From Alphaproteobacteria bacterium (lineage in GTDB: Bacteria; Pseudomonadota; Alphaproteobacteria; Micropepsales; Micropepsaceae): a stretch of 38,678 nucleotides of DNA. Position numbers and translations under genes: made by a program. A model generated the notes under the pieces. It was not told the origin of the DNA. It was given only the letters and a program-made list of their open reading frames with translations, and searched no databases. The stretch spans positions 1 to 38,678 of the forward strand of contig JAEUML010000212.1 in assembly GCA_016792785.1 (NCBI GenBank). Direction: 5' to 3'. Positions 6,074-31,833 of the stretch are shown piece by piece (position 1 is the stretch's first letter; each line of letters opens with the position of its first letter).

Positions 6074-7287
6074 GCCCGCTCGCCCGCATCGGCATCGGCA
6101 CCGGCGGCGCACCCGGCCCGATCCTGTTCTTCGCCTGCGCCGCGCATTTCATGCACCACGTGCTCGTGTCCCTGTATCTGACGCTTGTCCTCACGCTCAC
6201 GACCGAATGGAAGATGAGTTATAGCGACCTGATCGCGCTTTGGACGGTGGGCTCGCTGATGATCGGCCTCGGCGCGCCGCTCGCCGGTTGGCTCGGCGAC
6301 CGTTGGGGCGAGGCGCGCGTCATGGCGTTGACGTTCTTCGGTTTGGGCGCGGCCAGCATCCTCTGCGGCCTCGCGCAGGGGCCGCTCCAGATGAAGCTCG
6401 CGCTTGGCCTGCTCGGCGTTTTCGGCGCGCTCTATCATCCGGTCGGCAATTCCTGGGTCGTCAAGCACGCGGTCGAACGCGGGAAGGCGATTGCGCTTGC
6501 GGGCATCTTCGGCTCGTTCGGTGTCGCGGCCGGACCGGTCACCGCGGGCGTGCTGAACGATGTGATCGATTGGCGCTGGGCATTCATTCTGCCGGGCCTC
6601 GTCACGATCGTCTTCGGCATGGCGCTTGTCGTCTTGATGGGACAAGGCCGCATCCCCGAACGCGACGGTGACGCCGCCGAACTCGCCGCACACGAAGCGC
6701 CGAGCGCGCGTAACCGCCGCAACGTGCTCGCCCTGCTCGCGCTCACCATGACGCTGACGCTGATCGCGGTCACCGCTTTCATGACCGCGCTGCCGAAGCT
6801 GATCGAAGACCTCAACATCGTCTCGCGCGAAGGCTTGATCGGTGTCGGCCTCGTCACCGGCACGATCTTCCTCACCGCCTCCGGCGCGCAGTTCTTGGGC
6901 GGCCACTACGCCGATCGCGGCGCGGCAAAGCGCACGTACGTCATCTTGTTCGCCTTGCTCGCGCTTGCCTTTGCAGCCGCCGCCATGACCGGGAATTGGA
7001 TGCTCCTGCCGCTCGCGATCACCGTCATGTTCCTGTTCGAGGCGATCGCGCCGATCGAAACGATCTTTGTCGCCCGCTTCGCACCGGCAGCGCGGCGCGG
7101 CCTCTTCTTCGGCATGCGCTACGCGATCTCGGTGGTGGGCGGCCCCGTCGGTGTCTGGCTGGTCGCAGCGCTCTACGACCCCGCCGCGCGTTTCACGCCG
7201 ATGCTGCTCGTGCTCGCGGCCGGCGCCGTCGTCATCGCTGCCGTCAGCCTCGCTTTGCCTCGCGACCGCGAAGCACTCGCCGCATAA
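6070..7287 (+). CDS. MFS transporter
   Basis: About 405 residues with roughly 12 hydrophobic segments. GWLGDRWGEARVM near residue 77 is the loop 2-3 motif of the major facilitator superfamily, and a charged central loop around residue 200 separates the two halves. GVFGALYHPVGNSWVVKHAVERGKAIA resembles the fosmidomycin-resistance (Fsr) branch, though the substrate need not be the same. The frame stays open further upstream into the preceding gene, but the ATG at 6070 overlapping its stop is the natural start. An inner-membrane importer or exporter coupled to the FAD oxidoreductase, so its substrate may be an amine or amino acid. Confidence 0.85.
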   Translation: MSPLARIGIGTGGAPGPILFFACAAHFMHHVLVSLYLTLVLTLTTEWKMSYSDLIALWTVGSLMIGLGAPLAGWLGDRWGEARVMALTFFGLGAASILCGLAQGPLQMKLALGLLGVFGALYHPVGNSWVVKHAVERGKAIALAGIFGSFGVAAGPVTAGVLNDVIDWRWAFILPGLVTIVFGMALVVLMGQGRIPERDGDAAELAAHEAPSARNRRNVLALLALTMTLTLIAVTAFMTALPKLIEDLNIVSREGLIGVGLVTGTIFLTASGAQFLGGHYADRGAAKRTYVILFALLALAFAAAAMTGNWMLLPLAITVMFLFEAIAPIETIFVARFAPAARRGLFFGMRYAISVVGGPVGVWLVAALYDPAARFTPMLLVLAAGAVVIAAVSLALPRDREALAA

Positions 7288-7339: not shown

Positions 7340-9397
7340 CTACCAAATCCGGACGCGATCTTCCGGCTTCAGATACATCTTGTCGCCCGGCTTCACGCCG
7401 AACGCGTCGTACCATTCGTCGATGTTTCGCACGACGCCGTTGCAGCGGTATTCCGCCGGTGAGTGCACGTCGGCGGTCACCTGCTGCCGCAACGCCGGTT
7501 CGCGAGTGACCGAGCGCCACACTTGGCACCAGCCCAAGAACACGCGCGCATTGCCCGAGAACCCGTCGAGCACCGGCGCCTGCTTTCCGCCGAGCGACAG
7601 CTCGTACGCATAGCGCGCCACGGAAAGACCGCCGAGGTCGCCGATGTTTTCACCCGACGTGAAGTCGCCGTTGACCTTCAAGCCCGGCAGCGGCTCGAAC
7701 TGCGAGTACTGCGCCGCAAGCGCCTTCACCTTCTCGCCGAACCGTTCTTCGTCTTCCTTCTTCCACCATGTGCGCAGGACGCCGTTCTCGTCCGACTTCG
7801 CGCCTTGGTCGTCGTAGCCGTGACCCATTTCATGACCGATGACGCCGCCGATTGCGCCGTAGTTCACGGCCGGATCGGCGTTGATGTCGAAGAAGGGCGG
7901 TTGAAGGATAGCGGCGGGGAACACGATCTCGTTCCATTGCGGATTGTAGTAGGCGTTGACCGTCTGCGGTCCCATGCCCCACTCGTCCTTGTCGGTCTTC
8001 TGGTTCATGCGCACCGCGTTGCGGTTCCAGTCCCAAACAGCCGCGCGCTTGCGGTTGCCGTACGCGTCGCCGGGCTTGATCTCGAGCTTGGAATAGTCGC
8101 GCCACCGGTCGGTATAGCCGATCTTGATCCGCGCGGTCAGCGCCTTACGTAGCGCCAGCTGACGCGTTTCCGGCGACATCCACTCGAGGTTCTCGATCCG
8201 CTTCCGATAAGCGGTCAGCAGGTTGTCGACGAGTTTCTTCACCTCGGCTTTCGCCTGCGGCGTGAAGTGGCGCTTCACGTAGATCTGGCCCACTGCCTCG
8301 GCAAGCGGCGCGGCGAACGGATTGCCCGAAAGCGCCGTCGTCGCCCGCTTCCAGCGGTCGCGCTTCTGCTGCTGGCCGGTCAGGACCTTGCCGTTGAACT
8401 CGAAGGACGCGTCGTCGAACGCCGTCGGCAGAATGTCGGCCGAACCGTTCAGATAGTGGAACGTCAGATAAGCGCGCCACGTCTCGACCGGCGTGTCGCG
8501 GAACAACTTCGAAAGCGCGATCACCGCGTCGGGTTGACCGACGATGAAGAAGTTCTGTCCGCCCAGATTGCCTGACGCCAAACCGGCATCCCAGGGATAG
8601 GCCGGCGCGAAAGCCTTCAACTCGGCTTGCGTTTTCGCGTTGTAGTTCGCGTCGCGATCGCGCAGCTTTTCGATCGGCCATTGGATCTCGGCGATCTTCG
8701 TCTCAAGCGCCGTGATCGCGTCGGCGGAGGCAGCCGCATTCGCAATGTTCGCCAGCGTCAGCATCTTCTCGATGTAGGCACGATAGGCTTTGCGCGTGTC
8801 CGCAAAGTCGGGCTTCAGATAATAGTCGCGGTCTGGCATGCCGATGCCGCCCTGGCCGACGTTCAGCGAATAGCGGTCGGGATTCTTGTCGTCTATGCCG
8901 AAGCCCCAACCGATAGGGCCGTTGCTTGGCATTCCGGGATCGCCCATGACCGCGGCGACCTCTTCATGCGTCTTCAGTCCGGCGATGCGCGCAAGGTCCG
9001 CCGCGAACGGCTTCAAGCCCAAGGCGTCGATCACCTTCGTGTCCATGTAACTGGCGTAGTAGTCGGCGACCTTCTGCTCGACCGACCCCGGGCGCTGCGG
9101 TTTGGACGAGACGTCCTCGACCAGGTTCTTGACGTCCGTTTCCGACTTTGCAGCCAGGATATTGAACGAGCCCCAGCGCGAGCGGTCCGGCGGAATCTGT
9201 GCATTCTTCATCCAAGCGCCGCCAGCGAAGCGGAAGAAGTCGTCGCCCGGCTTCACGGCCTTGTCCATTGCGGTCAGGTCGAAGCCCCAAGGTCCGATTT
9301 CGGTCTTGCCGTGCTGTGCCGCGCCCGCCGAAAATCCGACGGCGAGCGCGCCGGCGGCGACCACGGTCGCGGCCGCCAACGTAAGTCTGATGTTCAT
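7340..9397 (-). CDS. M13 family zinc metallopeptidase (neprilysin/PepO-like)
   Basis: 685 residues. Zinc ligands and catalytic Glu are in HEMGH at residues 522-526, with the third ligand in ENIGD at 583-587. NAYYNP upstream is the substrate-binding motif of the family. The N-terminus MNIRLTLAAATVVAAGALAVG... is a signal peptide, so the enzyme acts in the periplasm or on the surface as an oligopeptidase. The frame is open 53 codons further upstream, but the ATG at 9397 starts the signal peptide and has GAGGGA before it. The family usually ends in CxxW; here the end is VRIW with no Cys. Monocistronic, with its own terminator. Confidence 0.93.
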   Translation of the reverse strand: MNIRLTLAAATVVAAGALAVGFSAGAAQHGKTEIGPWGFDLTAMDKAVKPGDDFFRFAGGAWMKNAQIPPDRSRWGSFNILAAKSETDVKNLVEDVSSKPQRPGSVEQKVADYYASYMDTKVIDALGLKPFAADLARIAGLKTHEEVAAVMGDPGMPSNGPIGWGFGIDDKNPDRYSLNVGQGGIGMPDRDYYLKPDFADTRKAYRAYIEKMLTLANIANAAASADAITALETKIAEIQWPIEKLRDRDANYNAKTQAELKAFAPAYPWDAGLASGNLGGQNFFIVGQPDAVIALSKLFRDTPVETWRAYLTFHYLNGSADILPTAFDDASFEFNGKVLTGQQQKRDRWKRATTALSGNPFAAPLAEAVGQIYVKRHFTPQAKAEVKKLVDNLLTAYRKRIENLEWMSPETRQLALRKALTARIKIGYTDRWRDYSKLEIKPGDAYGNRKRAAVWDWNRNAVRMNQKTDKDEWGMGPQTVNAYYNPQWNEIVFPAAILQPPFFDINADPAVNYGAIGGVIGHEMGHGYDDQGAKSDENGVLRTWWKKEDEERFGEKVKALAAQYSQFEPLPGLKVNGDFTSGENIGDLGGLSVARYAYELSLGGKQAPVLDGFSGNARVFLGWCQVWRSVTREPALRQQVTADVHSPAEYRCNGVVRNIDEWYDAFGVKPGDKMYLKPEDRVRIW

Positions 9398-9663
9398 GGA
9401 GTCTCTGTCCCTCGAAGATGAGGCGGACTTTGTCGGCGAAATGCGCCCGTTGACGCAACGGTCCAGGGCGGCCGCCCCCTTCACGTTGCTGCGATGTTCC
9501 GGCACCGACGATCCCCAAGGTCCAACCTGTCCCCCGCGCGCATTGCCGCGCCGCACCTATCGAAGCTTGGAAATTCGCTCAAGTCTGAGTACGAATTGGA
9601 AACAACGACGGCTTCCCGCGCAACTTTCTGTGATGGGACGCCGAAGAACAGGGGAGCAGGGGC

Positions 9664-11958
9664 GTGCTGAGAATCATCGGATGGGTGATCGCGCTCGCGG
9701 TCGTGCTGGGCGCCATCGGCGGCGTGTATTGGATCGGGGCGCGCGAAGGCTGGTTCGGCTCGGAGCGCGACGCAGGCGTCATCCAAGGCAAGCGCATCCC
9801 CGACGAAATCATATCCGCTCGTACGCAGTCGATCCGTGCCGTCGCGCCGCAAGAATCGACGGACCAAATCCTGTTCGGCGACCTTCACGTCCACACAACA
9901 TTCTCTGCCGACGCGTTTCAATTCTCGCTGCCGATGATCGGCGGTCCAGGTGTCCACCCCGTCGCCGACGCATGCGACTTCGCGCGCTACTGCTCCGCAC
10001 TCGACTTTTGGTCGATCACCGATCACGCCGAAACGATCACGCCGCTGCGTTGGCAGCGAACGAAGGATTCGATCCGCGCCTGTCAGAAGATCGCGGGCGA
10101 CGGCCCGAACCCCGACCTCGTGTCGTTCGTCGGTTTCGAGTGGACGCAAGTCGGGCGCTTGCCGACGGAGCACTTCGGCCACAAGAACGTCATTTTCAAA
10201 GACCTTGACGACGAAAAGCTCGCAGCCCGCGCGATCGGCGCAGGCGGCGTGGCCTCCACTGCACTGCGCAGCAGCTTTGGCATTCCGCCGGTAATTCCGC
10301 TGCTCGACTTCCAGAACCGCCAGGCCTATTTCGACTTCAACAAGTTTCTACGCCTGACCCAGGCGGTCCCGGACTGCGACCGCGGAACGCCGTCGGACAA
10401 GCTCTCGAAGGAATGCTACGAGACCGCCCCGACTCCGGGCGAACTCGTGCGCCGCCTTTACGACGAGCAAAAGCTGAACCCGCTCATCATCCCGCACGGT
10501 ACGACGTGGGGTTTTTACACGCCGCCGGGCACCAATTGGTTCAAGGCGCTCAACGCGAAGGAACGGCCCGAGAAGTTCCCGCTGGTCGAAATCTACTCCG
10601 GTCACGGCAACTCGGAAGAGTACCGTTCGTGGAAGGACATCATCCCCAGCGCCGATGGGCAGTCGGCGACGTGCCCCGAACCGAAAGGCAGCTATACGCC
10701 GAGCTGCTGGCGTGCTGGCGAGATCATTCGCGAACGTTGCCTGAAGAGCGGCGTCAACACCGCCGACTGCGACAAGCGTGCGGTCCAGGCGCGGGACGAC
10801 TACGCGAACATGGGCGTAGCCGGGCACTTGGCCGTCGGCGGTGAGACGCCCGAAGAATGGCTCGACGCCGGTCAATGTACCGACTGCTTCATTCCGCCGT
10901 TCAACCATCGCGCCGCGAACTCGGTGCAGGCGGGTCTTGCGAGCGCGATCTTCGACGATCCCGAGGGCAAGGCGACGCGCTTCCACTGGGGCTTCATTGG
11001 TTCGTCAGACAATCACCGCGCAAGGCCCGGCACTGGGTACAAACCGGTCGACCGCCGCAAGAATACGGAAGCGGGCGGCGCGATCAGCGCAGCCTGGCGC
11101 GATCGACTTCTGCCCGATCAAGGCAAACCCGAGCCGCAATCGAAGCGCATGTCGCGCGATGAATTGACGACGATGGCGGGCTTCCAGCTGACCGAGTTCG
11201 AACGCCAGTCATCGTTCTGGCTGGCGGGCGGCCTCGCCGCCGTGCACGCCGCCGAGCGCTCGCGCGACGCGATTTGGGACGCGCTACAGCGGCGCGAAGT
11301 CTACGCGACCTCCGGCCCGCGCATTTTGCTCTGGTTCAACGCCATTGATGCGCAGGGCAACAAGATCCCGATGGGGGCGCGCGCGCAAACCGACACGGTG
11401 CCGACCTTCGAAGTCCATGCCGTCGGCGCCTTTAAGCAGAAGCCGGGTTGCCCTGACTTCGCGAAGGCGGGCCTCGACGAGGCGCGCATCAAGAACATCT
11501 GCTCGGGCGAGTGTTACAACCCGTCGGACGAACGCCGCCTGATCACCCGCATCGAGGTCGTGAAGATACGCCCCCAAGCGAAGGCCGGCGAAGACCTCGC
11601 GCAGCTGATCGAGGATCGCTACCTCGTCCACACCTGCAAGCCCGATGCGAACGGCTGCAAGTTCTCGTTCACCGACCCCGAGTACAACAAGGCCAAGCGC
11701 GACACGATCTACTACGTGAAGGCGATTCAAGAAGCGGAGCCAACGATCAACGCCGAGCCGATCAAGTGCGAGCGCGACGGTAACGGGAAGTGCATCAAGG
11801 CGACGCTCTGCTACGGCGACTATCGCTCCGGCGAAGACGCTTGCACGTCGCCAGCTGAACATCGCGCGTGGTCATCGCCGATCTATCTCGACTACCGCAC
11901 GAAGGCGGCGGAATCGCCCGCTTTGCCGCCGCCCGAAGGAACGCCGAACGGTGGCTGA
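9664..11958 (+). CDS. DUF3604 protein, membrane-anchored PHP-like metal-dependent hydrolase
   Basis: 764 residues from a GTG start with AGGGGAG upstream. Residues 1-25 form one hydrophobic anchor, so the body is likely periplasmic. GDLHVHTTFSADAF near residue 77, SITDHAE near 118, a PHG, a GHGNSE and SSDNH are spaced like the metal-binding motifs of PHP/amidohydrolase-type phosphoesterases; this metal reading is mine. More than fifteen Cys, many in pairs (QCTDC, CSGEC, TCKPDANGC), suggest disulfides outside the cytoplasm. No activity is established for DUF3604 that I can name. Its stop overlaps the next gene, and the three genes here look like one unit. Confidence 0.9.
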   Translation: MLRIIGWVIALAVVLGAIGGVYWIGAREGWFGSERDAGVIQGKRIPDEIISARTQSIRAVAPQESTDQILFGDLHVHTTFSADAFQFSLPMIGGPGVHPVADACDFARYCSALDFWSITDHAETITPLRWQRTKDSIRACQKIAGDGPNPDLVSFVGFEWTQVGRLPTEHFGHKNVIFKDLDDEKLAARAIGAGGVASTALRSSFGIPPVIPLLDFQNRQAYFDFNKFLRLTQAVPDCDRGTPSDKLSKECYETAPTPGELVRRLYDEQKLNPLIIPHGTTWGFYTPPGTNWFKALNAKERPEKFPLVEIYSGHGNSEEYRSWKDIIPSADGQSATCPEPKGSYTPSCWRAGEIIRERCLKSGVNTADCDKRAVQARDDYANMGVAGHLAVGGETPEEWLDAGQCTDCFIPPFNHRAANSVQAGLASAIFDDPEGKATRFHWGFIGSSDNHRARPGTGYKPVDRRKNTEAGGAISAAWRDRLLPDQGKPEPQSKRMSRDELTTMAGFQLTEFERQSSFWLAGGLAAVHAAERSRDAIWDALQRREVYATSGPRILLWFNAIDAQGNKIPMGARAQTDTVPTFEVHAVGAFKQKPGCPDFAKAGLDEARIKNICSGECYNPSDERRLITRIEVVKIRPQAKAGEDLAQLIEDRYLVHTCKPDANGCKFSFTDPEYNKAKRDTIYYVKAIQEAEPTINAEPIKCERDGNGKCIKATLCYGDYRSGEDACTSPAEHRAWSSPIYLDYRTKAAESPALPPPEGTPNGG

Positions 11959-18879: not shown

Positions 18880-19641
18880 CTAAAACGCACGCGGGCGATT
18901 CTGCACGACATCGATCCGGTTCCCGTCCGGATCGTAGAATGTAAACCACTTGACGCCGCCGTTCTTGAGCGGCGTGACCGTCACCCCAAGACCTTCCAGC
19001 TTGGCGTGGACCCCCTCCACGTCGCCGGTGCGGAAATTGGGAAACGAGGTTGCGACATCGCTTGTCGCCGGCGCTTCTTCCGGTCCGAGTTGCCACAAGC
19101 AAAGATTGGCGCCGCGGCCAAGGTCGAGCAGCACGGTCGGCCCCGACGAATTGTCCTCGACCGCCTTGAGTTCCAACACCCGCTCGTACCAAGCGCGCGC
19201 CGACTTCAGATCGCGCACACGCAGCACCACCATATTGAGAGCGTCGAAGATACCGGCGTGCGGGCGTGGACCGGCGTCGGGCCTGGGTCCGCGTCCTTCG
19301 CGCGGACCGCCAAAGCCGCCGCGGCCGCCGCCATCACCACCGAAGCCGCCGGGACCGCGCGGACGAAACCCGCCGCCGCCCCCTCCGCCACCGCCGTCGC
19401 GGAAGCCGCCGCGCGGTTGCGGGGCAGGCGCCGGACCGTCGAGCTGAATTTCCGCAGCCATCGTCTTGCCGCGGTCTTGCGCGAGGTCGAACGTGACCCG
19501 CTGTCCTTCACCGAGAGCGGTAACGCCCGCCTTCGTCAGCGCCGAGATGTGAACGAAAACATCAGCCCCGCCGCCGTCTGGAAGAATGAAACCGAAGCCC
19601 TTCGCTTGGTTGAACCACTTAACAGTCCCGGATTTCCGCAT
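18880..19641 (-). CDS. fusion: cold-shock domain, Gly/Arg-rich linker, glyoxalase (VOC) domain
   Basis: 253 residues in one uninterrupted frame. Residues 1-68 are a full cold-shock domain with RNP1 KGFGFI (14-19) and RNP2 VFVHIS (28-33). Residues 70-130 are a low-complexity Gly/Arg/Pro linker with RGG-like units, typical of RNA-binding or phase-separating tails. Residues 132-250 are a VOC domain: LNMVVLRVRDLKSARAWYERVL at the start and FYDPDGNRIDVVQ at the end, with Asp where the usual metal-binding Glu would be. The enzyme part may be active or only a ligand sensor. ATG with GAGGA about twelve bases upstream. First gene of a three-gene operon. Confidence 0.88.
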   Translation of the reverse strand: MRKSGTVKWFNQAKGFGFILPDGGGADVFVHISALTKAGVTALGEGQRVTFDLAQDRGKTMAAEIQLDGPAPAPQPRGGFRDGGGGGGGGGFRPRGPGGFGGDGGGRGGFGGPREGRGPRPDAGPRPHAGIFDALNMVVLRVRDLKSARAWYERVLELKAVEDNSSGPTVLLDLGRGANLCLWQLGPEEAPATSDVATSFPNFRTGDVEGVHAKLEGLGVTVTPLKNGGVKWFTFYDPDGNRIDVVQNRPRAF

Positions 19642-22261: not shown

Positions 22262-23140
22262 GTGAAGGGCATCAAGGAATCGGGCACGATTGCGATCAAC
22301 GGGTTCGTGTTGATCGCAGTTCTGATCATCGGCGCACTGTTCCTTGCGGCGAACTTCGAGCAGGTGACGCGCCTCCTCGGCCCTTTCAACCTCGACGATC
22401 TGTCCGGCGTCTACATCCTGATCGGCGCCATGCTGTTCTTTCTGCTCGTGCCGAGTTTCGTGATCAACAATCCGAACGAAGCGCGCGTGATCCTGTTCTT
22501 CGGCCAATATGTCGGCACGTTGAAACGCGCCGGCTTTTACTGGGTCTTGCCGTTCACGACCCGCGAGGTTGTTTCGCGAAAGGTCGTCAGCCTCAACACC
22601 AAGACGCTCAAGGTCAACGATGCACGCGGCAATCCGATCGAGATCGGCGCCGTCATCGTCTGGCACGTGAAGGATTCGGCGCGCGCGGCGCTCAACGTCG
22701 ACAACTACCGCGAGTTCGTCGCCGTGCAGTCCGAGACGGCGGTGCGCGCACTCGCAAGCCGCTATCCCTACGACTCCGACGAAGGGCATGACTCGCTTCG
22801 CGGCTCTCCGGACAAGCTGTCGAGCGACCTGCAGAACGAACTTCAGGGTCGTCTGGACATTGCCGGCATCGAGGTCACCGAGACGCGCCTCTCGCACCTC
22901 GCTTACGCGCCGGAGATTGCATCGGCCATGTTGCGCCGCCAACAGGCGGAAGCGGTCGTCAGTGCGCGCCGGATCATCACCGAGAACGCGGTACGAATGG
23001 CCGACGCAGCGCTCACGCAGCTTGAAACCGAGGGCAAGCTCAAACTCGACGACAACGCCAAAGCGCGGCTTGTCAGCAATCTGCTGGTGGCGTTGGTATC
23101 CGAGCGCGACGCCCAGCCTGTGATCGACCTCAACCCATGA
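22262..23140 (+). CDS. SPFH/Band 7 domain membrane protein
   Basis: 292 residues from a GTG start. Two N-terminal membrane segments (about 13-31 and 48-67), then an SPFH domain (VPSFVINNPNEARVILFFGQYVGTLKRAGFYWVLPF onward) and a C-terminal coiled region with ARRIITENAVRMADAALTQLE. Such proteins form large ring- or cage-like assemblies at the inner membrane and often control proteases, as HflKC does for FtsH. The next plus-strand gene is an HslV-like protein, but a hairpin and a large palindrome lie between them, so joint transcription is uncertain. Confidence 0.88.
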   Translation: MKGIKESGTIAINGFVLIAVLIIGALFLAANFEQVTRLLGPFNLDDLSGVYILIGAMLFFLLVPSFVINNPNEARVILFFGQYVGTLKRAGFYWVLPFTTREVVSRKVVSLNTKTLKVNDARGNPIEIGAVIVWHVKDSARAALNVDNYREFVAVQSETAVRALASRYPYDSDEGHDSLRGSPDKLSSDLQNELQGRLDIAGIEVTETRLSHLAYAPEIASAMLRRQQAEAVVSARRIITENAVRMADAALTQLETEGKLKLDDNAKARLVSNLLVALVSERDAQPVIDLNP

Positions 23141-23336: not shown

Positions 23337-24644
23337 ATGACGTCTGAAGTGATGTTGTTGAACGTGCAGGGCGCTGCCCTGGCCGCGGACAGCGCATTGA
23401 CGGCAATCGAGTACCACCCAGACGGCACGGCAAGCGTCCGCTACCAGACGGGCACGGACAAGATCTACGTCCTCGATAAGTCGCTCCCGGTCGCGTCGAT
23501 GATCTTCGACGTTGCCGAGTTCTACCGCTATCCCTGGGCCTCGATCTTCGAGGCGTTCAAGGTCTGCGTACCTCAGACGGGCAACACAGTGCCCAAGGTC
23601 ACGCAGGCGCTGGTGACATTTCTCTCGCGCTGGACGTCGGGCGCCGACGCCAAGGCGCAAACGATGCTGCCGATCGAAGAGGGGCAGGAGCGGCTGTCGT
23701 TCGCGATCTACGTCGCAGCCTTGGTCCAGCGCTTCTATCAATGCGCGGAACTGGCGGGAGGCGGCAATGGACGAAAGTCCGACGCGTTGCCCCGCGCGCT
23801 CGACATGCTGCGCTTCGAAACGCAGTACTCGGGCGACTATTTCCAGAACCTGTTCCTGCCGCACGGTGAAGCGCCGACGCGCCGCCCGATCGTCGGCGAA
23901 AGCTCCTCCCGTCTCGTGGCGCTGCTCGATCAGTATCTGGATCGGCTGCTGACGGGCATGCTGAAGTCGATGTTCGGCGAAGGCGTCGTGCCCGACGGCA
24001 TCAAGGCGACGCTCGCCGAAATCGCGGTCGAGTCGTGCTTGACCGATTGGATGGCGCCTGGCGTGCCGAAGACGGGTGTCGTCTTTGCGGGCTTCGGCGC
24101 CAGCGACATCCGCCCGCAGTTCCTCGAAATCCGCATCGGCAGCGCCTTTGGCGGCATCGTCAAACATCAGTTGGTCGAAGGCGGCACGCCGACCCAGCGC
24201 GAACCGGCGATCATCCGCTCGTTCGCGCAGGCCGATCTGATCGACGCGCTGCTGCGTGGCGCGCAGCCCGGCTATCGCTACGTTCTGTTCCAACTCATGC
24301 GCCAAGGCATCGGGGCGCTGCTGAACGCGGTCGGCGGTGAAATCGCCAAGAAAGACGCGAACCTCGCGAAATCGATCCTCCAGACCTTCGATCAGGCGCC
24401 GTTGGCGGTCGCACGCGCCATCATCATGGCCGGCGACGACATTGCCAAACACGCGATGGAGATGCGCGTCGCGGACGTCGTGAGTTCGGCCGCACCCGAG
24501 CTTTTGGCCGACTACGCCAGCAAACTGGTGCGCCTGTCGGTGATCGAGCACGAACTGACCGGCAGCCAGACGGTGGCCGAACCGATCCTCGCCGTCTATA
24601 TGAAGAAGGGCCAGATCACGCGTATCGGGCCGAAGACGAGTTGA
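23337..24644 (+). CDS. HslV/proteasome-like Ntn-hydrolase protein with long C-terminal extension
   Basis: 435 residues. The N-terminus aligns with HslV: after loss of Met1 the first residue would be Thr2; GAALAADSALT puts D18 and T22 exactly where HslV has D17 and T21 of the mature chain; and TDKIYVL matches the KKVRRL block, so K42 would be the catalytic Lys after an eight-residue insert. PVASMIFDVAEFYRYPWASIFEAFK follows, a block I associate with a group of uncharacterised bacterial proteins. HslV itself is about 175 residues; the extra 250 residues here are helical and unrecognised. Expected to be a cytosolic hydrolase or peptidase. No HslU-type ATPase is near. ATG with GGGGG at eight bases. 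Followed by a small gene 17 bases later. Confidence 0.75.
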   Translation: MTSEVMLLNVQGAALAADSALTAIEYHPDGTASVRYQTGTDKIYVLDKSLPVASMIFDVAEFYRYPWASIFEAFKVCVPQTGNTVPKVTQALVTFLSRWTSGADAKAQTMLPIEEGQERLSFAIYVAALVQRFYQCAELAGGGNGRKSDALPRALDMLRFETQYSGDYFQNLFLPHGEAPTRRPIVGESSSRLVALLDQYLDRLLTGMLKSMFGEGVVPDGIKATLAEIAVESCLTDWMAPGVPKTGVVFAGFGASDIRPQFLEIRIGSAFGGIVKHQLVEGGTPTQREPAIIRSFAQADLIDALLRGAQPGYRYVLFQLMRQGIGALLNAVGGEIAKKDANLAKSILQTFDQAPLAVARAIIMAGDDIAKHAMEMRVADVVSSAAPELLADYASKLVRLSVIEHELTGSQTVAEPILAVYMKKGQITRIGPKTS

Positions 24645-24661
24645 ACGAGAGGGCATCAGCG

Positions 24662-25117
24662 ATGAAAAACACCTCGACGCCGAAACCGAGCCGCAAACCG
24701 GTCGCAGACATCGTTCATCAGATCCTGGAGACGGGACGGACCACGCGCACCGAAGGACCCTTCTCGGGGCTCTATGGCCGCGAGGCGCAACTGTCGGGCG
24801 CGCTGACGCAGGCCGGAACGCTGCTGGCGAAACTCGATCGTGGCGCGCCACCGCCGAAGCGGTCGTCGTTGTTGCAGAACATCTGGGGAAGCCCGGTGCC
24901 GAAGAAACCGCGCCGGCGTTCGTGGCTGTTCGGCACGTCGATGGCCGCGGCCGAAATGCCGGACACGACGCGCATCGAGCACTTGTTGCGGCTGACGGCG
25001 GCGGGCGGCCGGCGTTTGGTCCTGGACCGAGAGATCACCGGAAGCACGCTCGCGAACGGCGACGTCGATTGCGTCTTGCCCGAAGGCGCGACCGATCCTG
25101 TGTGCACACCGCGCTAG
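24662..25117 (+). CDS. hypothetical basic protein, partner of the HslV-like gene
   Basis: 151 residues, not recognised. The N-terminal third is polar with KPSRKPVADIVHQILETGR, the middle has PPPKRSSLLQNIWGSPVPKKPRRRSW, a basic Pro-rich stretch, and the end is acidic with two Cys. No signal peptide or membrane segment. The ATG at 24662 has GAGAGGG at eight bases; an in-frame TTG at 24641 is the alternative. It follows the HslV-like gene by 17 bases and is almost surely in its operon, so it may be a substrate, adaptor or assembly factor. Its stop overlaps that of the convergent LOG gene. Confidence 0.7.
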   Translation: MKNTSTPKPSRKPVADIVHQILETGRTTRTEGPFSGLYGREAQLSGALTQAGTLLAKLDRGAPPPKRSSLLQNIWGSPVPKKPRRRSWLFGTSMAAAEMPDTTRIEHLLRLTAAGGRRLVLDREITGSTLANGDVDCVLPEGATDPVCTPR

Positions 25118-26868: not shown

Positions 26869-27612
26869 ATGGGGCAGATCTCTTTTCCGACAATACTGGC
26901 GTTCAGTGAGACTTGCTTGGGCGCAAAACGCACGGAGGACATCACGGAGTCCTTCACCGCGCTACTGGCGCACGAAGGTGTAACGTCCTGGTTCGTCGGC
27001 TCATTCGCGCATGTCAGTCAGAACGGACGCGGTTTCGGTTTCTATGGAATTCCGCCCGCCTGGCATCAGCGTTATCTCGACGCCGATCACTACCGACACG
27101 ATCCCGTCTTTCAGCACGCCTTCGAGGGAAAGCCCCGCATCACATGGGGAGCGTGTCGCGCAAAGGCCCAAGCGGAAGGCGCAGGCGCCCGTGCCGAACA
27201 GGTCTTCCATGAGGCGGCGGAGTGCGGACTCACCGACGGCTTCATCATGCCTGTCCACGGCATAGGCGACCTGCCTGGGTGCGTGACCTATGGCGGGGAC
27301 GATATCGACCTTGGCGAAGATATGCAGACCTCTCTCTATCTGGTCGGTGCTTACGCATTCGAAGGCCTACGCAGATTGGTCGAGAATTTTCGGCCAGTCC
27401 CTCCACAATTTACGCCGCAGGAACTGCGAGTGCTTCGTTGGAGTGCTGAAGGAAAGTCTGCGACCGATATCGCGAAGATCATGAATATCAGCCCCCACAC
27501 GGTTCGTTCGCACCACAACAATATCAAGGCCAAGTACGGCGTCTTCACGATGATTCAGGCCTGCGTTTTTGCCGCCATAGACGGCACGCTTCGCCTCGTA
27601 CCGGCGCCCTGA
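26869..27612 (+). CDS. LuxR-family quorum-sensing regulator
   Basis: 247 residues. The autoinducer-binding domain keeps the six signature positions of TraR/LuxR: W65, Y69, D78, P79, W93 and G124, with the same spacing as TraR up to W93. The LuxR HTH is at about 181-240 (TPQELRVLRWSAEGKSATDIAKIMNISPHTVRSHHNNIKAKYGV). It should bind an acyl-homoserine lactone and then DNA; the palindrome at 27619-27636 before luxI is the best target. The start has only a weak ribosome-binding site. Confidence 0.93.
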   Translation: MGQISFPTILAFSETCLGAKRTEDITESFTALLAHEGVTSWFVGSFAHVSQNGRGFGFYGIPPAWHQRYLDADHYRHDPVFQHAFEGKPRITWGACRAKAQAEGAGARAEQVFHEAAECGLTDGFIMPVHGIGDLPGCVTYGGDDIDLGEDMQTSLYLVGAYAFEGLRRLVENFRPVPPQFTPQELRVLRWSAEGKSATDIAKIMNISPHTVRSHHNNIKAKYGVFTMIQACVFAAIDGTLRLVPAP

Positions 27613-27618
27613 AGCGCC

Positions 27619-27636
27619 ATCCCTAAATTTGGGGAT
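27619..27636 (+). promoter_or_regulatory. lux-box-like palindrome before the AHL synthase
   Basis: ATCCCT-AAATTT-GGGGAT, 18 bases, symmetric at all but one base pair. It sits between the luxR and luxI genes, 57 bases upstream of the luxI start. Size, symmetry and place fit a lux box, but the sequence differs from the classical ACCTGT-type box, so the link is inferred from position. Confidence 0.55.
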
Positions 27637-27693
27637 ATCGTCTCACGGGTGACAACCGACACTATGACCTCCTTTCAGCCGAGGAGGTCGGAC

Positions 27694-28317
27694 ATGGTGC
27701 AAGTCATTGCCGGCGCGGCAAATCCCGATTGCGGGCCGCTGCTTGAAGAGATGTTTCGCCACCGCTACCAGATTTTTGTCCGCGAGAAGGGATGGAATCT
27801 GAAGTGCGAGAACGATCTTGAGATCGACAAGTACGACACGGCCGACACGATCTATCTGGTCGAGTCCGACTCGGGCTCGAAGATCGGGGCGTCGATGCGC
27901 CTGAATCCGACGGATCGTCCCTGCATGCTCGAAGATCACTTTGCGGACATGTGCGAGCGCACCATGCCCCGCGGCAAGGACGTTTGGGAATTGACTCGCG
28001 GCGCCGTGTCTTCGGACTTGCGCAAGAGCGGGATTTACGGCCGCGTCATTTGCGCGATGGTCGAATCGGCGCTGCTTTGGGGAATCCAAAGGGGCATCGG
28101 CGTATTTTCCGTCGACTATCTGATGAAACAGATGCGCTTCGGACTCGACGCCAAGCCCTTGGGGCGACCGCGCATCATTGACGGCGAGCCAAACGTGGCC
28201 GCGGAAATTCTCTTCGACCGGCAAACACTGGAGCGCCTCCGTGCGAGTTTTCGGATTACGACGCCGACGATCGAAAGGCTCTATCTGATGCCCGCCCCGC
28301 GCAAGGCGGCAGCATGA
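27694..28317 (+). CDS. acyl-homoserine-lactone synthase (LuxI family)
   Basis: 207 residues. With the ATG at 27694 the conserved residues fall on the canonical LuxI numbers: R24, F28, W34, E43, D45, D48 and R69; E99 and R102 are the next pair, shifted by two. The same ATG has AGGAGG at six bases, while the upstream in-frame ATGs lack one, so this start is firm. It makes the signal from SAM and an acyl-ACP or acyl-CoA; chain type cannot be read. Downstream of luxR in the same direction and translationally coupled to a small gene (ATGA). Confidence 0.93.
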   Translation: MVQVIAGAANPDCGPLLEEMFRHRYQIFVREKGWNLKCENDLEIDKYDTADTIYLVESDSGSKIGASMRLNPTDRPCMLEDHFADMCERTMPRGKDVWELTRGAVSSDLRKSGIYGRVICAMVESALLWGIQRGIGVFSVDYLMKQMRFGLDAKPLGRPRIIDGEPNVAAEILFDRQTLERLRASFRITTPTIERLYLMPAPRKAAA

Positions 28318-29511: not shown

Positions 29512-31722
29512 CTACCAGTAGAGCTTCAGGCCGATCCCGCCTTTGTAGCCGGTGATGTCGTTGGACAGGCCTTCCTGATAGCTGCCGTCCAGGAAAACCG
29601 CAAAGTTCTCGTCGAGATAGGTCTGCAAGCCGCCGTCGATCGACAGCAGCTGCTCGTTCGTTGCAGCCGAGGTGGTGAACGGACCCGCCGAAACCGTGTT
29701 CACGCCGTCCGACAACACGTCCGAGAGCGACACTGCTGCCCAGGGACGGATCGAACCACCCCACGTTACGCCGTCGAAGCGAACCGTACCCTTGGCCTCG
29801 ATCAGTCCCGTGTCTTCAGACACCGTGAAGCCGAAGCAGCTCTCGCCACAATCCGAGCCGTCGTAGTTGACCGCACCGATGAGCTTGACCGCCACGAAGT
29901 CGAGGTCGAGCGCCACGCCCGCCTGCGCCCCGGCGATGAAGCCGGTCACCGACGTTTGCTGGGCGGGCGTCAAGGCGCCCGTGAACGTCCAGTCCATGTC
30001 CGTGTAGCCGGCTGACAGGTTGACGAAGAACGACGAGCTGGTGAACGCTGCATAGACTTCGATCATACGCGCGTCGCCGTCGAGGTCGCCGAGACCCGCA
30101 GGCGCCGAAAGGTCGCCGTTCGCGCTGCCGAAGCCGCCGGCCACGCCGCCGAACCAGCCATAGCCCATGCGCCAATCCATGCCGCCGGTCGTACAGCTGT
30201 AGTCGAGATCCATATCGATCCCGGTGTCCGGGCCGTACTCTGTATTGCCCTGGTGATAACCGAACCAAGCGCGGCCATACGTGGCGCCCTTCGGACTGTC
30301 GGGCACGCGCTGGTCGTCGCGGAAGCACCCGCGAACCATCTGTTGGCTCGCTGACAACAGCGCCGGATGCGCAGTCAACTCGTCGCGCGCCGCCGATTGC
30401 AGGAAGTAGCCGTCATCGGTGCCGCCAGAGTAGTTCGGCACATAGCGCAGCAAGTACTGATAGACGCCAGCGGTGAGGGCGTTGCCTTGGTAGAAGTCAT
30501 TGCCGGCGTTGGCGCTGGTGCCAGTGATGCGAATGACCTGAATGCCGTTGCCGGTGGTTGCCCCACCAATGGGAACTTCATCGAACGACGCGACGCTGAA
30601 CTTCGTAGCCTGCGTGCCAAGCATATTGCCGTTGATCGTCAGGAAGTCCTTGTCCGTTCCCGCCACACCGCCAGCAGGCAACGAAGCGTCAATGTCGATG
30701 AACATGCCGACATACGCAAACGCGCCCGTAGCTTGGTAATTCCCGTTGATGGTGATTTGGCCCATGTCCTGACCGACGTTCTCAGCCGTCGTTCCAGTCG
30801 GCCACGTCGGGACGGAGGTATTGCCGGGCTGGAGACCGCCGTTGCTCGAGACGTTGCCAGTGATGACGGCGTTGCCGGTGATACGGCTGATCTGGTTTGT
30901 CGTGGTAATCGTGACGGGTCCGGTGATGGCATAGCTAGCTATGCCCTTCGAGCTCAATGTGCCGTCCGCAACCGTGACGCCGCCGGCCGCTGCTATCGCA
31001 TTAGCGTTGCCGATTTCCAAGACGCCGCCGGTCACAGAGAGCGCACCTGTGAACGTGTTGGCGCCGGTGAGGATCATCTTGCCGCCGCCGGCTTTCGTGA
31101 AGCCACCGGAACCGGAGATGATTCCGGAGAAGGTTGTGTTGGTGCCGTTGCCGCCAGCGGTCAAGATGCCTGGCGAAAGCACGCTGACGCCGCCAGAGCC
31201 TGCCAAACTGCCGATCGTTTCGCTGGTGGCACCCAGGTTCAGCAAGCCCGTGCCACTGACAGTCACGGCACTCGCATCGCCGACAGCGTTACCGCCCAAG
31301 GTTTGAAGGGTCCCGTCCACAGTCCAGGTCAGCGACAGCGTTGATGTGCCTGTTCCGGTGAGCGCGAGGTCCGAGCCCGCTGTGACTTGCGCTAGTTCGA
31401 AGTTCAAGAAGCGCAACGGCGCGGTGAGGGCCGTGCCAGTGCCGATGGCGTTGGCGTTCAGCGTCAGGCCGGCTCCGCTGAACTGCAAGGTGTCGGTGCC
31501 CGCGCCCGCATCGTTTGATCCGGTAGCAATGTCTTCCTGGTTCGGACCCGGCGGCCCGATCACCAGAGTGCATGTGTTTGCACTACCATCGCCAACGCAC
31601 GCTGCGGTCGCAGCCGGTGCGAGCGCGACCAGCAGTCCCGCCGAGGCAGTGGCCATCAGCGTGGCACGCAGGGTCGAACGCGAAAAAACACTAAGAACGG
31701 CACGCGCGTGCGCGGTCGTCAT
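29512..31722 (-). CDS. autotransporter (type V secretion) outer-membrane protein
   Basis: 736 residues. An extended signal peptide ends near residue 40 (APAATA). The passenger (about 41-470) is Gly/Thr/Ser/Asn-rich; SGSGGFTKAGGGKMILTGANTFTG is an autotransporter-associated beta-strand repeat. The last 260 or so residues form the beta-barrel (GRAWFGYHQGNTEYGPDTG ... GYKGGIGLKLYW). The chain ends in Trp rather than the usual Phe, which is an accepted but less common BAM signal. The ATG at 31722 has AAGGAG at seven bases. Codon use is less GC-biased in the passenger than in the neighbours. Probably a surface adhesin or matrix protein. Confidence 0.88.
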   Translation of the reverse strand: MTTAHARAVLSVFSRSTLRATLMATASAGLLVALAPAATAACVGDGSANTCTLVIGPPGPNQEDIATGSNDAGAGTDTLQFSGAGLTLNANAIGTGTALTAPLRFLNFELAQVTAGSDLALTGTGTSTLSLTWTVDGTLQTLGGNAVGDASAVTVSGTGLLNLGATSETIGSLAGSGGVSVLSPGILTAGGNGTNTTFSGIISGSGGFTKAGGGKMILTGANTFTGALSVTGGVLEIGNANAIAAAGGVTVADGTLSSKGIASYAITGPVTITTTNQISRITGNAVITGNVSSNGGLQPGNTSVPTWPTGTTAENVGQDMGQITINGNYQATGAFAYVGMFIDIDASLPAGGVAGTDKDFLTINGNMLGTQATKFSVASFDEVPIGGATTGNGIQVIRITGTSANAGNDFYQGNALTAGVYQYLLRYVPNYSGGTDDGYFLQSAARDELTAHPALLSASQQMVRGCFRDDQRVPDSPKGATYGRAWFGYHQGNTEYGPDTGIDMDLDYSCTTGGMDWRMGYGWFGGVAGGFGSANGDLSAPAGLGDLDGDARMIEVYAAFTSSSFFVNLSAGYTDMDWTFTGALTPAQQTSVTGFIAGAQAGVALDLDFVAVKLIGAVNYDGSDCGESCFGFTVSEDTGLIEAKGTVRFDGVTWGGSIRPWAAVSLSDVLSDGVNTVSAGPFTTSAATNEQLLSIDGGLQTYLDENFAVFLDGSYQEGLSNDITGYKGGIGLKLYW

Positions 31723-31833
31723 CCGACACTCCTTACCCACTTACCTTGGCGGCTTTGGTTGTTCTTGAGTCTTGGGTTGGATTTGACCGAATCCGGCCTT
31801 GGGGCGCAACGCAAAGAGGTGCGAATGGTCAAA

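Follow-up and report, generated by a model that had tools for sequence, protein, structure and literature searches.

The locus described here lies in contig JAEUML010000212.1 (assembly GCA_016792785.1) from a bacterium of the Micropepsaceae (Alphaproteobacteria); positions 1 to 38,678 of the contig were analysed and are called the window below. Two genes on the forward strand are of interest, and their features are collected in Table 1. The upstream gene is a real, uninterrupted open reading frame (ORF) whose product, the enzyme, begins MTSEVMLLNVQGAALAADSALT. The start of the downstream gene, which encodes a small basic protein, is most likely the ATG at 24662 rather than the TTG at 24641, because a Shine–Dalgarno-like stretch, GAGAGG, precedes the former and homologues align from there. 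A sequence-only reading of this DNA had already placed a basic protein of unknown function after the enzyme, and only its start has been moved.

Table 1. Features of the enzyme–partner locus, numbered from the first nucleotide of the window
Feature	Position	Strand	Evidence
Proteasome-like N-terminal-Thr hydrolase (PMI-type, phrog_5990), 435 aa	23337..24644	+	ORF, PHROG match, AlphaFold2 topology, invariant residues
Thr2 codon, predicted catalytic N-terminal nucleophile once Met is removed	23340..23342	+	Thr in 124/124 homologues and 80/80 viral sequences
Asp18 codon, equivalent of proteasome Asp17	23388..23390	+	124/124 homologues
Lys42 codon, equivalent of proteasome Lys33	23460..23462	+	124/124 homologues
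Insertion 1, helical, after H1/H2, residues ~102–245	23640..24071	+	AlphaFold2 secondary structure; poorly conserved in homologue alignment
Insertion 2, helical, between H3 and H4, residues ~311–384	24267..24488	+	AlphaFold2 secondary structure
C-terminal beta strands closing the Ntn sandwich, residues 418–430	24588..24626	+	AlphaFold2
Small basic partner, 151 aa, computed pI 10.2, largely low-confidence/disordered	24662..25117	+	9/9 genus loci, dN/dS, AlphaFold2

Thr2, Asn9, Asp18, Ser19, Lys42, Gly247 and Gly252 are identical throughout an alignment of 124 homologues of the enzyme, and Val413, which lies just before the C-terminal strands, is kept in 122 of them. At residue 58, the Gly47-like position, the window enzyme has Asp, which counts against a proteasome-like hydrolase, though Gly, Asn and Asp predominate there across the family. 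Because Thr2, Asp18 and Lys42 are invariant, their match to the catalytic triad is no chance likeness. The sequence-only reading had taken these residues for a catalytic-type triad, and the conservation of Thr2, on which its proposal turned, is what the alignment shows. The dN/dS ratio of the enzyme gene is about 0.1–0.15 for most pairs. Sequence searches with the enzyme against Pfam, NCBIfam, PADLOC and the PDB gave no match above the cut-off.

The structure of the enzyme was predicted with AlphaFold2 from a 45-sequence alignment, giving a model with a pLDDT of 84.7 and a pTM of 0.80. Its elements follow one another in the order of the proteasome: strands, helices H1 (residues 67–77) and H2 (85–101), strands at 246–296, H3 from residue 300, H4 (387–408) and the closing strands. 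Comparison of the model with the PDB using Foldseek returned proteasome subunits as all of the first 26 matches, with probabilities of 0.85–1.0 and a best E-value of 2.5e-3; the insertions probably split the alignment and so keep the E-values from reaching 0.001. Among viral matches, the best bears the annotation of a proteasome beta-type subunit. We conclude that the predicted fold is that of a proteasome-type Ntn hydrolase, an alpha-beta-beta-alpha sandwich with the proteasome strand order. This agrees with the earlier proposal of an Ntn hydrolase that has an N-terminal Thr, shares its ancestry with the proteasome and HslV, and is accompanied by a small partner. The 250-residue extension that went with that proposal is replaced, in the model, by two internal helical insertions, which account for the extra length and leave the proteasome core to close at the C-terminus.

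The insertions place the enzyme among known relatives. Fuchs, Alva and Lupas (2021; PMC8665760) listed 22 proteasome-like families and found gene context uninformative as to their function. Two of these families, PMI-3 and PMI-4 ("proteasome homologs with multiple insertions"; reference sequences OGZ26396.1 and HDY66466.1, respectively), have insertions after H1/H2 and between H3 and H4; PMI-4 is the abundant one of the two, occurring across bacterial phyla and also in phages (PMC8665760). The window enzyme, with insertions at sites 3 and 4 and none between S3 and S4, where the modelled loop has 5 residues, matches the PMI-3/PMI-4 layout, and its family is broadly distributed in bacteria and phages, as is PMI-4. 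By its insertion layout, the enzyme very probably belongs to PMI-4, the choice over PMI-3 following from abundance and phage occurrence. It also matches phrog_5990 (PHROGs v4, function unknown) with an E-value of 9e-20, the best stretch covering only the N-terminal 75 residues; phage members of the family match this group over their full length with E-values down to 7e-152. The enzyme thus adds a new and divergent branch to a family that has been catalogued but not characterised, and for which no functional study was found in a literature search of open-licence PMC papers.

Nine close homologues, with 70–86% identity to the window enzyme, are present in public genomes. Within the genus, nine of the ten other genomes have the gene (10 of 11 with the window genome), and homologues at 26–30% identity occur in other genera of the same taxonomic family. 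On chromosomes outside the window genus the distribution is sporadic, the enzyme being encoded in 16 of 337 alphaproteobacterial genomes. Plasmid-borne homologues occur in Rhizobium, Mesorhizobium, Ruegeria, Pantoea and Enterococcus, and others in phages and Streptococcus satellites; a search of IMG/VR gave at least 132 candidates, and 80 of these stretches were retained. Frame-disrupted copies, at 8509–9781 of locus L160 (Hyphomicrobiales bacterium UR115) and apparently at 7001–8074 of L050 (R. leguminosarum TpK), suggest loss in some lineages.

In the window genus, the partner gene is found by tblastn downstream of the enzyme in all nine homologous loci. Its dN/dS ratio of about 0.25–0.45 in most pairs indicates purifying selection, with faster evolution than that of the enzyme. 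AlphaFold2 applied to the partner alone gave a pLDDT of 56 and a pTM of 0.20, values that fit a protein in which disorder prevails. The sole strictly conserved block is the C-terminal tail of about 15 residues (window 25070–25117), in which C-x-LP-x-x-A-x-DP-x-C-x-PR is invariant in all ten genus partners. A second motif, RRRSWLFG, is internal.

Across the wider family, partners were recognised by a rule: an ORF of 35–75 aa with an ATG and a ribosome-binding site, starting −25 to +30 nt from the enzyme stop. Such an ORF is present in 35 of 41 non-redundant phage loci, against 16 of 201 controls, which were other long ORFs of the same loci (Fisher p ~1e-23); restricting the count to lineages of <40% identity gives 14 of 16 (p ~4e-12). 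Several loci negative by the rule (Mesorhizobium, L124 and L171) have a small ORF in a different reading frame that begins within the 3′ part of the enzyme gene or otherwise overlaps it; such partner-like ORFs are located at ~8250–8500 in L035, ~7310–7480 in L124 and ~8720–8990 in L171. The family partners are basic, with a median pI of 9.8. Those at chromosomal alphaproteobacterial loci are often longer (100–194 aa), and several of the longer ones end in a basic-aromatic tail, for example RRSWLGLFRGR or RRGFFGLFRRK, to which the RRRSWLFG of the window genus is related.

The partners are too divergent to be aligned as one sequence family. One docking motif common to all of them was looked for and not found: the C-terminal motif of the window genus is absent from partners of other lineages, and an Ar-Ar-x-x-P pattern does no better in partners than in shuffled sequences. 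The pattern 'FF or W..[KR][FY]' occurs in 28 of 72 partners, where shuffled sequences give 7.7. Another, W..[KR].?[FY], which was defined on the enterobacterial partners, recurs in 7 of 68 others against 0.7 expected, five of the seven coming from one family. Both patterns are post hoc and serve as a lead. Gene association shows that across the family the enzyme has a small basic protein as its standing partner, and this is probably the working partner as well; position, size and charge are what point to a shared function, because the sequences form no single family. The two-gene module appears undescribed, none being found in the open-licence PMC papers searched. The sequence-only reading had suggested an undescribed system, which is apt for the module and not for the enzyme family, very probably the PMI-4 of PMC8665760.

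Synteny was assessed by tblastn, with genes of the window as queries and the nine homologous loci as targets. A convergent gene of lysine-decarboxylase/LOG type is present in all nine and a DsbA-like gene in seven, where it stands immediately upstream of the enzyme. In the window, the DsbA-like gene and the enzyme are separated by an SPFH gene (22262–23140; Pfam Band_7, E = 3e-23), 200 bp upstream of the enzyme and on its strand. The SPFH gene has no match in any of the nine loci and is, because of that absence, an interloper in the window genome. Beside the locus is a LuxR/LuxI-type quorum-sensing pair (26869–28317), which has a tandem duplicate in the relative L001 (9607–12660). On the reverse strand are an autotransporter-like protein with PATR and autochaperone domains (29512–31740) and an ORF that unusually fuses cold-shock and glyoxalase-type domains through a long Gly/Arg-rich linker (18880–19641), with only partial matches in some relatives.

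Outside the genus, chromosomal loci have no recurring neighbour, and the genes around the enzyme are mixed metabolic ones; with defence-model matches scattered only, a defence-island context on chromosomes was rejected. No ATPase gene recurs among the neighbours. In phages and prophages the pair adjoins antiterminator Q, repressor and endolysin genes, a common cargo position, and in Streptococcus satellites it lies near the element end. On Rhizobium and Mesorhizobium plasmids (L035, L036, L040 and L050), only a few genes separate the enzyme from genes for multiubiquitin/E2 and a ThiF-type E1; in R. gallicum, the adjoining multiubiquitin is a fusion with a prokaryotic E2 domain. A ClpP-like protease gene is also found beside the enzyme on Rhizobium plasmids.

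These contexts bear on several readings of the enzyme as part of a larger machine. The sequence-only reading had linked it to the upstream SPFH protein, and such a link would make the locus a membrane proteolysis system governed in the manner of HflKC–FtsH. The same-strand Band_7 gene is real; the partnership is refuted by synteny, since none of the nine homologous loci has the gene and in seven the enzyme comes straight after the DsbA-like gene, and we give the partnership practically no credence. Special resemblance to HslV (ClpQ) had also been claimed. The two proteins do share the order of N-terminal Thr, Asp and Lys and the Ntn sandwich, and an hslU elsewhere in the window genome might supply HslU in trans to an HslV-type ATP-dependent protease subunit. 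However, HslV is ~175–180 aa long with HslU adjacent, whereas the window enzyme is more than twice that size, has the two insertions at ring-contact positions and, as had been noted earlier, no HslU beside it. No HslV or Proteasome model of NCBIfam or Pfam matches the enzyme, and PF00227 matches nothing in the window genome. Moreover, each of the five other genomes of the genus that were checked has a genuine HslV at another location. The hslU of the window genome, on another contig, is cut by the contig end, so that its hslV is unseen; hslU would thus have a partner of its own. We therefore reject the identification with HslV and regard supply in trans as extremely unlikely. A role for the family as protease arm of ubiquitin-like systems in bacteria is suggested by three Rhizobium plasmids, all with the same arrangement, and by one from Mesorhizobium. 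This pattern is not mirrored genome-wide: among the 337 alphaproteobacterial genomes 10 have Multi_ubiq, and only one has both it and the enzyme, on different contigs. None of these genes is at the window locus, and a ubiquitin-like system as the general context of the enzyme is very improbable.

Overall, we consider it likely that the locus encodes a PMI-type, very probably PMI-4, proteasome-like Ntn hydrolase together with a dedicated small partner. In Ntn hydrolases of this kind Met1 is removed before the Thr, and the free Thr is the nucleophile. Methionine aminopeptidase would likewise strip Met1 here and expose Thr2, with the invariant Asp18 and Lys42 serving as a putative proton relay. 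The enzyme probably does not form an ATP-fed barrel of the HslUV type, because the modelled insertions fall at sites of ring and inter-ring contact in HslV and the proteasome and no AAA+ gene is linked. It would instead act as an AAA+-independent selective Thr hydrolase, a monomer or small oligomer with a restricted set of substrates. Short aromatic/basic motifs would let the partner dock on the enzyme, where it would serve as a subunit for targeting or regulation; this is the weakest step, and we hold it tentatively, at a little less than an even chance.

Other roles for the partner can be drawn from the same observations. A small basic ORF close downstream and often overlapping, the prophage position by antiterminator-Q, repressor and endolysin genes, the satellite position near element ends and the sporadic occurrence among alphaproteobacteria would all suit an inhibitor or antitoxin that silences a harmful protease, the pair being a defence or superinfection-exclusion cassette. 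The enzyme is nevertheless a fixed chromosomal gene with conserved, ordinary neighbours in the window genus; given the metabolic surroundings elsewhere and the failure of any PADLOC model to fit the locus, we think an inhibitor unlikely. The partner might alternatively be the substrate of a selective processing peptidase or transpeptidase that cuts or transfers at a conserved site. Its one invariant block in the genus, the C-terminal tail, would provide such a site, and the modelled insertions speak against a bulk-degradation barrel. Connectase, an archaeal protein ligase and proteasome homologue that recognises a short motif, offers a precedent, but its insertion is between S3 and S4 and it lacks H1/H2 (PMC8665760). 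The tail motif, moreover, was not found in partners outside the window genus, and a substrate role appears rather improbable. We place at the same level the broader conjecture, drawn by analogy, that all of PMI-4 is two-component: a hydrolase or ligase derived from the proteasome, but forming no barrel, would have the small disordered basic protein as its substrate or tag, in independent analogy with the Pup–proteasome system or with connectase and its target. A docking or regulatory subunit remains our preferred role for the partner.

Whether encoded in bacteria, on plasmids, in prophages or in phage satellites, the most widespread PMI-like family comes with a small partner dedicated to it, and the partner gene offers a concrete handle on the function of the enzyme. 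The pair also bears on how proteasome-type enzymes act when they have neither ATPase nor barrel, and on the reasons for their presence in mobile elements.

Among known systems, Anbu resembles the window enzyme in the C-terminal strand pair after H4 and in the absence of a linked AAA+ unfoldase; it has a C-terminal H5 coiled coil and no large insertions, the reverse of the window model, and there is no match at the sequence level. In the Pup operon layout, a small, mostly disordered protein is encoded adjoining a proteasome-family gene. The likeness of the window pair to the Pup/bacterial proteasome system is in this gene arrangement only, as no Pup-ligase-like gene adjoins and the partner has no GGE/GGQ terminus. 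Connectase is a proteasome homologue that forms no barrel, as is probable for the window enzyme, and has a helical insertion and a dedicated specificity; its insertion comprises two helices between S3 and S4, and it lacks H1 and H2, which the window enzyme retains. PMI-4 itself shares with the window enzyme the proteasome-like fold, the Thr/Asp/Lys triad and both insertion sites. Members of the window clade form a divergent branch within the Alphaproteobacteria; they have ~20% identity to phage members and lack the usual W-[IV]-x-R-K-H-Y-F C-terminus. PMI-4 was described in 2021 as having no informative genomic context (PMC8665760); in contrast, a small basic partner gene accompanies the enzyme family-wide.
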